This document shows positions 3,579-12,795 of a stretch of 37,399 nt of DNA, piece after piece. Each line of letters begins with the position of its first letter. Position 1 is the first letter of the stretch. The stretch is taken from NCBI GenBank assembly GCA_003235715.1, contig QJVM01000137.1, positions 1-37,399 on the forward strand. Direction: 5' to 3'. A model generated the notes under the pieces. It was given only the letters and a program-made list of their open reading frames with translations, made no database searches and was not told the origin of the DNA. Origin of the DNA: Nitrospirota bacterium (lineage in GTDB: Bacteria > Nitrospirota > Thermodesulfovibrionia > SZUA-242). The position numbers and the translations under genes were made by a program.

Positions 3579-3608
3579 AAGAACCGCGGTCTCTATCGCG
3601 AAACGAGA

Positions 3609-3638
3609 GGCGGAGAGTTTCTCTCCGCCTTTTGTTTT
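3609..3638 (+). terminator. Rho-independent terminator of the degQ-like gene
   Basis: A perfect 9-bp stem, GGCGGAGAG / CTCTCCGCC, has a TTT loop and is followed directly by TTTTGTTTT. It lies 30 bases after the protease stop codon. The T-tract is on the plus-strand side only, so it should not stop the convergent spermidine synthase transcript. Confidence 0.93.
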
Positions 3639-5688: not shown

Positions 5689-5792
5689 TAGCCCGCAATC
5701 CCCCGGCCACAGCCCCGACGGTTTAACTGGCCGCTGCCATCCTGTTAGAATTCCCTCGCCATTCCTTACAATTTTCAATGGGGGTTACCCGA

Positions 5793-7085
5793 ATGTCCGA
5801 GCTCAAGAAGATGTACAAGACCGTCATGGACGACCATTTCCCGGACGAAATGACCATCACCTTTGGCGAGCAGAAGCTCACGTATCGCAAACGGGCCTGG
5901 ACGATTCCGGATGCCAAGACCGGCGAATTGATCCGGAAAGGCCTGCGATATGGTGAGAACCCGGGCCAGGAAGCCGCGCTCTATGAGTTGACGGGTGGTA
6001 ACCTGGCGCTTGGCGGATGCGAGTTCATCCAGCCCGGTAACGGCCTGACGAGTGCCATCACAGAGGAGGACATGATCCAGGAAGGGAAGCATCCGGGCAA
6101 GACGAATCTTACCGACCTGGATAACGGGCTGAACATTCTGAAGTATCTGACGGAAAAACCTACCGCGGTCATCCTCAAACACAACAACCCCTGTGGGGCC
6201 GCCCAGGCCGGGAACCTGTCCGATGCGTATGATCGGGCGAACACGGCCGACCGGATTGCCGCCTTCGGGGGCGCGCTCGTGGTGAACCGGGCCATGGACC
6301 AGGCTACGGCTGAACTCGTGAGCCAGAATTATCTTGAAGTCGTTGCGGCCCCGGAGTTCGAGGAGGGAAGCGTCGAGATTCTTGCCCGTAGAAAGAATCT
6401 GCGGATTATCCGGGTTCCCGGCATCCATCGCCTCAAGAACTTTGCAACCCTCCGGTTCGCGGATTTCAAGTGCCTCATCGACGGCGGTATCATTGTTCAG
6501 CAGTCCCCGCTGAACCGGGTCCTCCGGCGGGAGGATTTTCTCCCGGCCGAGACGGTATACCAGGGCAGGACGTACCGCCCTGAACGTGAGCCCACCGAGC
6601 GGGAATACGATGACCTGCTGTTTGGCTGGTCCGTGGAACAGGGGATCACGTCGAATTCGGTGATTTATGTGAAGGACGGCGTGACCGTGGGTATCGGCAC
6701 CGGCGAACAGGACCGCGTCGGTGTGGCCGAGATTGCCGTCTTCAAGGCCTATACCAAGTACGCGGATGCCCTCTGCTACAGGCGTTTTGGCGTGCCGTAC
6801 AAGACGTACGAACTTGAGGCCAGCCAGGGCAAACGGGATATGGCCGGGCTGAAGGAGGTCGACGAGGAGACCCGTAAGAACAAAGGGGGGCTCATTGGAT
6901 CGGTCATGATCTCAGACGCCTTCTTCCCCTTCCGGGACGGTGTGGATGTGGGTATCAAGGAGGGCGTCTCGGCCATTGCCCATGCCGGCGGATCCGAGCG
7001 GGATTTTGAATCGATTCAGGCCTGTAACGAAGCTGATCCAAAGGTGGCCATGGTGTTTACGGGGCAGCGCGCCTTCAAGCATTGA
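5793..7085 (+). CDS. purH: AICAR formyltransferase (C-terminal half of PurH as a separate gene)
   Basis: Predicted to transfer a formyl group from 10-formyl-tetrahydrofolate to AICAR, giving FAICAR, the substrate of the cyclohydrolase at 667-1371. The 430-residue protein carries the AICARFT core: AVILKHNNPCGAA (the KH and NPCG catalytic segment), DRIAAFGGALVVNRAMD, and a C-terminal SVMISDAFFPFRDGVD. It lacks an MGS-like cyclohydrolase domain and has its own N-terminal extension (MYKTVMDDHFPDEMTITFG). The ATG at 5793 has only a weak GGGGG upstream; an in-frame ATG at 5778 would add five residues. The two PurH halves lie 4.4 kb apart, in the same orientation, with unrelated genes between. Confidence 0.9.
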   Translation: MSELKKMYKTVMDDHFPDEMTITFGEQKLTYRKRAWTIPDAKTGELIRKGLRYGENPGQEAALYELTGGNLALGGCEFIQPGNGLTSAITEEDMIQEGKHPGKTNLTDLDNGLNILKYLTEKPTAVILKHNNPCGAAQAGNLSDAYDRANTADRIAAFGGALVVNRAMDQATAELVSQNYLEVVAAPEFEEGSVEILARRKNLRIIRVPGIHRLKNFATLRFADFKCLIDGGIIVQQSPLNRVLRREDFLPAETVYQGRTYRPEREPTEREYDDLLFGWSVEQGITSNSVIYVKDGVTVGIGTGEQDRVGVAEIAVFKAYTKYADALCYRRFGVPYKTYELEASQGKRDMAGLKEVDEETRKNKGGLIGSVMISDAFFPFRDGVDVGIKEGVSAIAHAGGSERDFESIQACNEADPKVAMVFTGQRAFKH

Positions 7086-7149
7086 TGCCGGTTTGAGAAG
7101 GAACAAGAGCACAGGCGGTACCGGAAAACGGCGATAGGTGAAAATGAGA

Positions 7150-7208
7150 CCAGGCCGTCGGCTCGATCCTGCAAGACACCTTCTCCGGGATCGAAACGAA
7201 CGGCCTGG
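7150..7208 (-). terminator. Long hairpin, possible terminator of the zinc-ribbon unit
   Basis: A 9-bp perfect outer stem (CCAGGCCGT 7150-7158 / ACGGCCTGG 7200-7208) encloses a second 6-bp stem (CGATCC 7163-7168 / GGATCG 7188-7193). On the minus strand it lies 15 bases after the stop of the 66-aa zinc-ribbon gene and is followed by TCTCATTTTC, a weak T-tract. It could equally act on the plus strand at the 3' end of the AICARFT message, where no T-tract follows. Confidence 0.45.
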
Positions 7209-7222
7209 CGGTTTCTCGGGAC

Positions 7223-7423
7223 TTAGGCGAAGTGCTGCTGAGGCGGTGAGGCGGCTCTCGGATCCATGGGCCTTACGGGTGTGGAATGACAGACCGCTCG
7301 GGCCGATTCAATACACCGGTGGCAGGTCAGTTGTATCCCTTCCATGGGGGGGAAACTCCGCCGTGTGTAAAACGGACTGTACTCCAAATCCGAACCGCAG
7401 CTGCTGCACCGCACTTTTTCCAT
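7223..7423 (-). CDS. Small zinc-ribbon protein, function unknown
   Basis: I do not recognise this 66-residue protein. It opens MEKVRCSSCGSDLEYSPFY and has a second pair in LTCHRCIESARAVCH, giving CxxC-x(24)-CxxC, a spacing that can bind one zinc ion. The rest is polar with no membrane segment. The ATG is supported by a strong GGAGGT site six bases upstream, the main reason I accept it as a gene. Just upstream on the same strand are a hairpin terminator with a U-tract (7474-7509) and a longer structured stretch, so transcription may be attenuated before this gene. It is divergent from argS and convergent with the AICARFT gene. The C-terminal end (PRAASPPQQHFA) looks disordered. Confidence 0.6.
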   Translation of the reverse strand: MEKVRCSSCGSDLEYSPFYTRRSFPPMEGIQLTCHRCIESARAVCHSTPVRPMDPRAASPPQQHFA

Positions 7424-7473
7424 TCGCTACCTCCACGAGTGATTTGGGGTTCCGGCTCTGGACGAGCAACGGC

Positions 7474-7509
7474 AATAAAAAAGGCATCAACGCCTGCGCG
7501 CCGATGCCT
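7474..7509 (-). terminator. Rho-independent terminator/attenuator before the zinc-ribbon gene
   Basis: On the minus strand a 7-bp stem AGGCATC / GATGCCT (7509-7503 and 7488-7482) with a GC-rich loop is followed by a run of Ts and then ATT. It lies 50 bases before the zinc-ribbon ATG, at the 3' end of a structured stretch. It could end a small RNA or act as an attenuator. Confidence 0.72.
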
Positions 7510-7690
7510 CATATCTCCATCGGGAAAACACCGAATCTTGTGTTTTCCCGCCACTGGTCCCCGTGTGTTAGCCTGTGTCGTACGAACAACGCGCCCCCTT
7601 TTTTGACCATCTGGGATTTTGAGCGCCTGACACCCTTGTGGGCAACGGAGGTATTTTCCTCCCTTCGGCAAGGGATTTCAAGAGGGGAGG
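7474..7690 (-). ncRNA. Candidate structured RNA or riboswitch-like leader
   Basis: About 215 bases between argS and the zinc-ribbon gene can fold into successive stems on the minus strand. CCCTTG (7674-7669) can pair with CAAGGG (7638-7633), enclosing a GGAGG/CCTCC hairpin (7662-7647). GTGTC (7633-7629) can pair with GACAC (7579-7575). A perfect 11-bp hairpin, CGGGAAAACAC / GTGTTTTCCCG, lies at 7550-7521. The hairpin terminator follows at once. I cannot match it to a known riboswitch, 6S, tmRNA or RNase P consensus. A 64-codon frame (7703-7509) also crosses it but resembles no protein I know and has no ribosome site. No good promoter was found on this strand. This element and its terminator occupy most of the 368-base gap 7424-7791. 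Confidence 0.4.
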
Positions 7691-7753
7691 GAGGCGCGGC
7701 CATAACTCATTGAATTATTATTTTTTTTGAGGCTTGCCGCCCAGCGGTTTCCG

Positions 7754-7783
7754 TTGACAACCCGGGCCGGTGGTCCGTATCCT
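7754..7783 (+). promoter_or_regulatory. Sigma-70 promoter of argS, very close to the start codon
   Basis: A perfect TTGACA (7754-7759), an 18-base spacer and TATCCT (7778-7783). Only eight bases separate the -10 box from the argS ATG, so transcription should begin at or within a base or two of the start codon. Confidence 0.7.
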
Positions 7784-7791
7784 ATGCAGCC

Positions 7792-9462
7792 ATGCGTGAA
7801 ACCGTGCGAAAGAGTGTTCTGGCCGCTCTGGAAGACCTGGGGGATGAATGGGCCCTTGGGGAGGTCCCCGCATTTGAGGTTGAAGTGCCCCGTTCGGATG
7901 CTCATGGCGACATGGCCTGTAACGTGGCCATGCAACTGGCCAGACCCCTTCGCCAATCCCCGAGGAAGATCGCAGAACGGATCACCGGCCTTCTCGGACA
8001 GTCTTCCGACCTTTATGCCGCCGTCGAGATTGCGGGACCCGGTTTTATCAATTTCCGTTTCTCGTCGGCCTTCTGGTACCACTCCCTGGGCCGGATTCTG
8101 GGGGAAGACCCCACGTTCCTCAGGCCGCAGACGGGCGGAGGCAAACGTGTGCAGGTGGAATTCGTCTCAGCCAATCCCACCGGCCCGCTCCATATCGGAC
8201 ACGGCCGCGGGGCGGCCCTCGGACTGGCTCTTTCGAATCTCCTGGAAGCTGCGGGATATCAGGTCGAACGAGAATTCTATGTTAACGACGCAGGACGCCA
8301 GGTCCGCCTGCTCGGACTTTCCGTATTTGCCCGTTACCAGGAATTGTTGGGAGAGCGTGTATCCATGCCGGAGGACGGCTATCACGGGGAGTATGTACGG
8401 GATATTGCCCAACGTCTGCTCGATGAAAAGGGCGAGCGGTATCGGGGGCTTGAATCCGAGGAATGTGGCCAGGAGGTTGCGGATTGGGCCTGCGGTGTGA
8501 TGCTGGATGAAATTCGCATGGACCTGGAGGCGTTCGGGGTCCGTTTCGATACCTGGAAGAGCGAGAAGGAACTCTACACGAACAACGCCGTCCAGGAGGC
8601 GCTCTCGAACCTGAGGAAATCCGACCGGGTGTACACCCACGAGGCTGCGTCCTGGTTCCGTTCGAGCCTGTTCGGCGACGAGAAGGATCGCGTTGTGGTC
8701 AAGGCCAATGGCGAATTCACTTATTTCGCTTCGGATATTGCCTATCACAAGGACAAACTGGACCGGGGGTATGACGCGATTATCGACATCTGGGGGGCGG
8801 ACCATCACGGGTATGTTCCCCGCGTCTCGGCCGTCCTTCAGGCCTTCGGGTACGACAAGTCCAAATTCCAGGTCCTGCTGGTGCAGATCGTCAACCTGCT
8901 TCGGGGGGGCGAACCGGTAAAGATGTCCAAGCGGGCCGGGGACTTTATCACCCTGAAAGAGGTGGTGGATGAGGTGGGTGCGGACACGACGAAGTTCATT
9001 TTCCTCACCCGCCGGTCGGACAGCCACCTGGACTTTGATATTGAAGTGGCCCGCGAACAGTCACCGGAGAACCCGGTGTATTACGTCCAGTATGCCCACG
9101 CGCGAATCAACAGCATCTTTCGCCAGGCCCCGGCCAAGGGCTTTGGAAAGATTGAAAAGGCGTCACTCCGGGAGAGCAACCTGACCCGACTGAACGAGGC
9201 GGAGGATATCGGGATGATTCGGATGCTTTGCCGTTATCCGCTTGTCTTTGAAGATGCGGCCCGGACCCATGAACCCCATCGCATTACTTTTTACCTTCAG
9301 GAACTGGCCTCCCTCTTTCATACCTACTACACCAAGCACCGCGTTCTTGTGGAAGAGGACCATGAACTGGCCCGCGCTCGTATGGCCCTGGCCTGGGCTG
9401 TGGAAGTGGTTCTGAAGGATGGTCTTTCCATTCTCGGGGTTCATGCCCCGGAACAGATGTAG
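7792..9462 (+). CDS. argS: Arginyl-tRNA synthetase
   Basis: Class I aminoacyl-tRNA synthetase that charges tRNA-Arg in the cytoplasm; 556 residues is the normal length. The Arg-S N-terminal domain (about 1-110) is followed by VEFVSANPTGPLHIGHGRG, carrying the HIGH motif (134-137), and by the KMSKRAGDF loop near residue 377. The DALR anticodon-binding domain ends the protein (ELASLFHTYYTKHRV). There is no Shine-Dalgarno site. A good promoter ends eight bases before the ATG, so the mRNA may be leaderless. The gene is divergent from the structured leader and zinc-ribbon unit, and convergent with the O-methyltransferase. Confidence 0.97.
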   Translation: MRETVRKSVLAALEDLGDEWALGEVPAFEVEVPRSDAHGDMACNVAMQLARPLRQSPRKIAERITGLLGQSSDLYAAVEIAGPGFINFRFSSAFWYHSLGRILGEDPTFLRPQTGGGKRVQVEFVSANPTGPLHIGHGRGAALGLALSNLLEAAGYQVEREFYVNDAGRQVRLLGLSVFARYQELLGERVSMPEDGYHGEYVRDIAQRLLDEKGERYRGLESEECGQEVADWACGVMLDEIRMDLEAFGVRFDTWKSEKELYTNNAVQEALSNLRKSDRVYTHEAASWFRSSLFGDEKDRVVVKANGEFTYFASDIAYHKDKLDRGYDAIIDIWGADHHGYVPRVSAVLQAFGYDKSKFQVLLVQIVNLLRGGEPVKMSKRAGDFITLKEVVDEVGADTTKFIFLTRRSDSHLDFDIEVAREQSPENPVYYVQYAHARINSIFRQAPAKGFGKIEKASLRESNLTRLNEAEDIGMIRMLCRYPLVFEDAARTHEPHRITFYLQELASLFHTYYTKHRVLVEEDHELARARMALAWAVEVVLKDGLSILGVHAPEQM

Positions 9463-12075: not shown

Positions 12076-12795
12076 TCAATTCTGCTCCAGCGGCCGAAGA
12101 ACGATCACTCCGGGTTTCCTTTCGACATAATCCCGGAAAGGTTCATCGAGAACCTTTCCGTGCCGGCTTGACGCGTGTCGGAGGTACTCGCTTCCGTTCC
12201 TGCGGACGAAGATCCCGACGTGCGTCACGTCCAGTCCTTCAGCCTCTGCATAAAAGCCGAGGTAATCGCCGGTTCGCATCTCCTGAATCATACCTGGTGT
12301 CAGGATGGACGATGGAATCCAGGAGACCTCCGCATCGTGGCCACGGAGTCCCTCCACCCAGGGAGCCCCTCCCGAACGGAGATTCAGGTGTTTCAGCGTA
12401 TGCCGAGATACCGGGCCCGCAAGGGCCTCTGTGAGGTCCTGGATGCGCCCTGCATTATGAGTTTTCCAGTCCGAAAGGAAGTGGTTGCGGGTTCCGCGAT
12501 CCACGACACCCTCCTGGTAGCGCACCTTCCGGAGAGTCCGACAGAATTCGTCGAATGAACGGGAGGTCCTCATGGCCTCCACGTAGTCCAGCAGGGTGAA
12601 GCAGTCCACGGCCTCCAGTCTCAGGACCAGACGTTCGGGTTCGCCGGCCTTGGCTTCGAGCGTATGGGGAACATACGGAGTGCCGAGAAACTCCGAGGAT
12701 ATCGCTTCTATCCGCTCGGGAGACGCGGGGAGTCTCGAAGTCTTTTCGAGCAGGTCCTCAATCCGCGCCTTGGACCAGGGGCGGACCGGTGTCAC
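12076..12795 (-). CDS. DUF1460 family protein, predicted muropeptide amidase (NlpC/P60-like)
   Basis: DUF1460 proteins have an NlpC/P60-like papain fold; characterised relatives cut the amide bond between N-acetylmuramic acid and the peptide. In this 239-residue protein I see FLGTPYVPHTLEA, the probable nucleophile Cys in EAVDCFTLLDYVEAM, the RNHFLSDWKTHNAG block, and the probable catalytic His in DVTHVGIFV followed by YLRHASS. The GTG start at 12795 has GAGG six bases upstream, and an in-frame TGA lies 20 codons above it, so the protein cannot begin much earlier. It has no signal peptide and should be cytoplasmic, the compartment that AmpG, encoded just downstream, supplies with muropeptides. 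Confidence 0.85.
   Translation of the reverse strand: MTPVRPWSKARIEDLLEKTSRLPASPERIEAISSEFLGTPYVPHTLEAKAGEPERLVLRLEAVDCFTLLDYVEAMRTSRSFDEFCRTLRKVRYQEGVVDRGTRNHFLSDWKTHNAGRIQDLTEALAGPVSRHTLKHLNLRSGGAPWVEGLRGHDAEVSWIPSSILTPGMIQEMRTGDYLGFYAEAEGLDVTHVGIFVRRNGSEYLRHASSRHGKVLDEPFRDYVERKPGVIVLRPLEQN

Follow-up and report, generated by a model that had tools for sequence, protein, structure and literature searches.

The argS gene is separated from an AICARFT/IMPCHase-like gene by a 706-bp gap, which contains a perfect 11-bp hairpin followed by a strong intrinsic terminator, both assigned to the minus strand. In our judgment, chances are about evenly balanced that these two elements close a short minus-strand unit divergent from argS, with an orphan transcript particular to its lineage as the product, most probably a small RNA. 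In such a unit, transcription would begin either in the A+T-rich stretch at about 7704 to 7735 or from a weak internal site, and would stop at the terminator, yielding a transcript of ~170 to 230 nt with the 11-bp hairpin beside its 3' end; where in this range the length falls depends on the start point. Speaking for an orphan transcript are the strongest terminator of the window, a rare hairpin, a T-run on one strand, a gap that looks noncoding, and an argS promoter that faces away; speaking against it are the lack of a recognisable upstream promoter, the lack of relatives, and a 5' part that folds like shuffled DNA. The window, meaning the whole 37,399-nt stretch that we analysed, belongs, as contig C29, to a draft genome of 3.24 Mb, and the closest named relatives of its argS are Nitrospirota metagenome assemblies, among them L032 at 66% identity. 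The features of the locus are collected in Table 1.

Table 1. Features in and around the intergenic gap upstream of argS (coordinates are positions in the window)
Feature	Coordinates	Strand	Basis or remark
AICARFT/IMPCHase-like gene (PF01808)	5778-7085	+	Pfam
Long imperfect hairpin, past the 66-codon frame and the AICARFT/IMPCHase-like gene	7150-7208	unspecified	Hairpin listing (pairs I3 and I5)
66-codon frame (unproven as a gene) encoding two C-x2-C pairs; good ribosome-binding site	7223-7423	-	ORF list, sequence, Pfam
Intrinsic terminator: 13-pair stem (7510-7481), GCAG loop, U-rich tail to 7475	7475-7510	-	Terminator scans
64-codon frame across the putative RNA, whose stop codon overlaps the terminator at its first base	7509-7703	-	ORF list
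Perfect 11-bp hairpin, CGGGAAAACAC/GTGTTTTCCCG, 8-nt loop	7521-7550	-	Hairpin search
5' part of the putative transcript	7551-7703	-	Predicted fold no better than chance
argS promoter, TTGACA-18-TATCCT	7754-7783	+	Promoter scan; divergent from the putative RNA
argS, arginyl-tRNA synthetase	7792-9462	+	Pfam

A sequence-only reading of this DNA had described a U-tailed terminator and a perfect 11-bp hairpin, and both are indeed present. The terminator stem has a calculated energy of -22.3 kcal/mol, and its T-run, read directly from the sequence, occurs on the minus strand only. Its 13 stem pairs are the most among the 29 terminator-like sites that two scans returned across the whole window, where the runner-up has 9. 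Since terminator-like sites overall are no commoner in the window than in its shuffles, what stands out is the strength of this one. The 11-bp hairpin (-16.5 kcal/mol) lies 10 nt ahead of the terminator stem. Shuffling the 706-bp intergenic sequence 200 times never produced its equal, the best result being 9 bp; at the scale of the whole window it is less rare, as 1 of 20 shuffles contained a perfect 11-bp hairpin. The window itself holds a second perfect 11-bp hairpin at 12134 to 12160 (loop of 5) and a perfect 10-bp hairpin at 3608 to 3630 (loop of 3), the latter situated between a trypsin/PDZ-type protease gene and a spermidine-synthase-like gene that converge on it.

With both elements of the gap real, it is credible that a minus-strand transcript ends near 7475. 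Such a transcript would resemble the general kind of bacterial small RNA that carries an intrinsic terminator and diverges from its neighbour, in its intergenic place, its strong 3' hairpin, and its terminator, which lies on the RNA strand and has a T-run on that strand alone; it differs from such RNAs in having no relative and no known family, and in being known from sequence alone.

Predicted folding places the structural signal at the 3' end. On the minus strand, the segment from 7475 to 7703 folds with a z score of -2.89 (1 of 200 shuffles equally good), compared with -2.37 for the plus strand of the same segment. Sliding 120-nt windows at 7440 to 7559 and 7480 to 7599 gave z scores of -5.4 and -5.1, while the 5' part alone (153 nt) gave -0.15, with 84 of 200 shuffles folding equally well or better. 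The fold signal therefore comes from the two 3' hairpins and not from nested stems spanning some 215 bases, as had been proposed, and this origin in two simple hairpins, as opposed to a complex 5' domain, is what the analysis chiefly shows.

The setting is consistent with transcription away from argS. Because the argS promoter is divergent, the putative RNA would start back to back with argS and read away from it. In nine of the 10 relatives compared, a similar promoter-like site stands directly before argS, judged by eye and unscored (L032, L033, L034, L035, L037, L039, L040, L042, and L043, with L041 the exception). By eye, the form in these relatives is TTGACt/a...TATCCT-like or TTAAACT-like, which makes it a useful guide to promoters in the phylum; the 200 bases before argS in L042 also include a C/G-rich inverted-repeat-like sequence (CTCCCC...GGGGAG type) that resembles a dispersed intergenic repeat. 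For the putative RNA itself, a promoter scan of the minus strand upstream found no promoter-like site, and a weak 9/12 site lies inside the RNA at 7681 to 7653 on the same strand.

The gap gives little sign of coding. Its six-frame translations have no match in Pfam, and a six-frame codon scan found no frame at gene level, borderline values near 7116 to 7235 excepted. Only in that segment, on both strands, do codon scores in the gap approach gene values; the segment overlaps the long imperfect hairpin at 7150 to 7208. This hairpin is possibly a shared terminator for convergent units; neither of its strands has a clean T-run, and the segment from 7120 to 7239 folds with sliding-window z scores of -3.0 (plus) and -2.3 (minus).

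The earlier reading could place the feature in no known RNA class, and Rfam agrees: its covariance models gave 0 matches in the window at gathering score, and relaxing the search of 7200 to 7850 to E values up to 10 added four matches, all far below threshold and on the opposite strand, to families from animals or viruses. Conserved homologues, to which that reading had looked for covariation, were found in none of the 229 other genomes of the class and nowhere in the phage and plasmid sets searched. Searched as DNA, the feature matched only itself among 61 genomes (its own included) at an E value of 0.001, and among 230 class genomes (again including its own) at E values up to 1 it returned, besides itself, short chance-type matches only; sensitive blastn against phage and plasmid collections gave no match, nor did the hairpin pattern against viral contigs. 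A covariance model built from the single sequence of 7703 to 7567, a kind of model that is weak against diverged relatives, recovered only itself in the 230 class genomes at an E value of 0.01, and itself plus one weak match (19.5 bits, E value of 0.3) in the 61 genomes at an E value of 1. As no searched genome contains a relative, nothing indicates that the RNA is under selection.

Several candidate identities were considered and rejected. The feature is not a multicopy repeat, its own genome holding one copy only. A likeness to tRNA-Ser had been suspected from TTGAAATCC and from many 19/20 matches to query bases 40 to 59; ARAGORN reported no tRNA in the window and, at 19 matching loci, two tRNAs only; these lie in L161, outside the match there. 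The recurrent 20-base match in L169, L171, and L174 falls within what we take to be cold-shock protein gene-like sequence (GFKSLAEGD), and we regard it as a chance match seen often because cold-shock genes are conserved. A paralogue of 6S RNA (RF00013) was considered because of a likeness by eye. The two are alike in size (near 180 to 230 nt), but 6S RNA was not among the matches to 7200 to 7850 even at E values up to 10, and the genome's own 6S matches lie elsewhere (G000:C242:3714-3896 and G000:C64:8724-8807). Matches to 6S RNA exceed the Rfam cutoff in 61 of 61 genomes; 29 of these have at least two matches at E values of ≤1, and 9 have two over the cutoff, so a divergent second 6S RNA may be common in the class.

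Besides an orphan transcript, the gap could hold a remnant: a minus-strand gene that decayed within the 706-bp stretch and left its terminator behind, with the 64- and 66-codon frames being chance or fragments. The family comparison, which covers two other genomes, both of other genera, bears on this account. In one of them (G002, L149), the AICARFT/IMPCHase-like gene and argS lie 6 nt apart, compared with 706 bp here, so that the whole stretch was gained or lost within the family. In the other (G001), the divergent gene next to argS is a different one, a thioredoxin-reductase-like frame read from the DNA by eye; L032 is identical to this genome across 1,488 aligned bases upstream of argS. Decay would fit both the gain or loss of the stretch and the finding that none of its frames has conserved content. 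However, the stretch offers no recognisable protein-family fragment by which a decayed gene could be named, and gain is indistinguishable from loss because the adjacency is seen in two genomes only. We consider a remnant rather unlikely.

The sequence-only reading had offered two products, an attenuating riboswitch and a stand-alone small RNA. The second is credible, as set out above; the first has nothing positive in its favour beyond its layout. If the RNA were a riboswitch or another transcription-attenuating leader, its 5' part would sense something and determine whether the terminator at 7510 forms, thereby controlling a 66-aa zinc-ribbon protein. In the general kind of such leaders, the same order is found of leader, terminator, ribosome site, and short frame, and the spacing described earlier is accurate: the terminator's U-tail ends 51 nt ahead of the ATG of the 66-codon frame, at 7423. 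The ribosome site that had been called strong is well placed, with GGAGG at 7434 to 7430, 6 nt before that ATG. A promoter scan found no promoter-like site in the 51 nt separating terminator and frame, and in a 205-nt prefix representing a truncated transcript, the 5' end is predicted to pair with the first arm of the terminator.

Such pairing is nevertheless matched by chance. Forbidding the terminator stem, computed with an energy penalty on that stem, costs 10.2 kcal/mol, compared with a mean of 9.3 (standard deviation of 3.1) for shuffled leaders, 116 of 200 of which had a cost as low or lower. The upstream pairing gain of the first terminator arm is -7.5 kcal/mol. Of 300 shuffled leaders, 76 did as well, and with the 11-bp hairpin retained the count was 53 of 300. 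In these folding models a competing structure exists on paper, as it does in many shuffled leaders of like composition, and nothing marks it as selected. Unlike attenuating riboswitches, the feature has no known aptamer in Rfam, no antiterminator beyond chance in folding models that leave any ligand aside, and no conserved target gene; the missing Rfam match, the missing relatives, and a 5' domain that folds no better than chance all count against a switch.

The proposed target also weakens the case, as the 66-codon frame has neither relatives nor a coding signature. Its codon score, measured against the codon usage of six window genes, is -0.17, compared with 0.27 to 0.47 for those six. The best Pfam match, Zn_ribbon_4 at 13.8 bits, falls below the zinc-ribbon threshold of 30.3, and NCBIfam and viral contigs gave no match. 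Weak matches are to PHROG 27542 (the best among PHROGs, E value of 0.0033) and to a plasmid position at no annotated gene (one tblastn match, E value of 0.03). Candidate relatives were rejected both in the class (230 genomes), where five weak matches besides its own had E values of 0.005 to 0.01 and four of the five contained stops, and in the phylum (395 genomes), where three besides its own had E values of 5e-4 to 9e-4 with the cysteine pairs unaligned by eye; one of the phylum matches is antisense to a frame that reads, by eye, like an ABC-transporter permease. Single-sequence AlphaFold2 models of the 66- and 64-codon frames were of low confidence (mean pLDDT of 59.6 and 57.6) and uninformative either way. 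The zinc-ribbon gene that the earlier reading had assumed is thus unproven, with no Pfam match over the cutoff, no true relative, and a codon score outside the range of window genes. From its ribosome site and two C-x2-C pairs, the frame may possibly be a recent or fast-evolving gene; if the orphan transcript is the right account, it would be read by read-through only or would be no gene at all. We regard an attenuating leader as improbable, and a lineage-private version of an undescribed kind, in which the 5' end pairs with itself or with the first terminator arm to control the C-x2-C protein, as more doubtful still.

It is very unlikely that the 64-codon frame is a small protein gene and the terminator its own: the frame reaches its end where the terminator stem begins and its codon score stands 2.1 standard deviations over its own shuffles, but no ribosome-binding site precedes its ATG, the score itself is -0.12 compared with 0.27 to 0.47 for window genes and is similar to those of four other, unrelated frames from this stretch (-0.15 to -0.56), its best PHROG match has an E value of 0.058, and its structure model is of low confidence. 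The frame, whose conservation as a protein would have told against an RNA, has no family match and is probably noncoding, given its lack of a ribosome site and coding signature.

On present evidence, the feature is ordinary and is of small consequence unless it can be shown to be a switch. The orphan unit, if transcribed, would add a further lineage-specific small transcript in a phylum that has received little study and that we judge to be Nitrospirota from the named relatives. A lineage-private attenuator, if true, would couple a small C-x2-C protein to whatever signal its leader senses.
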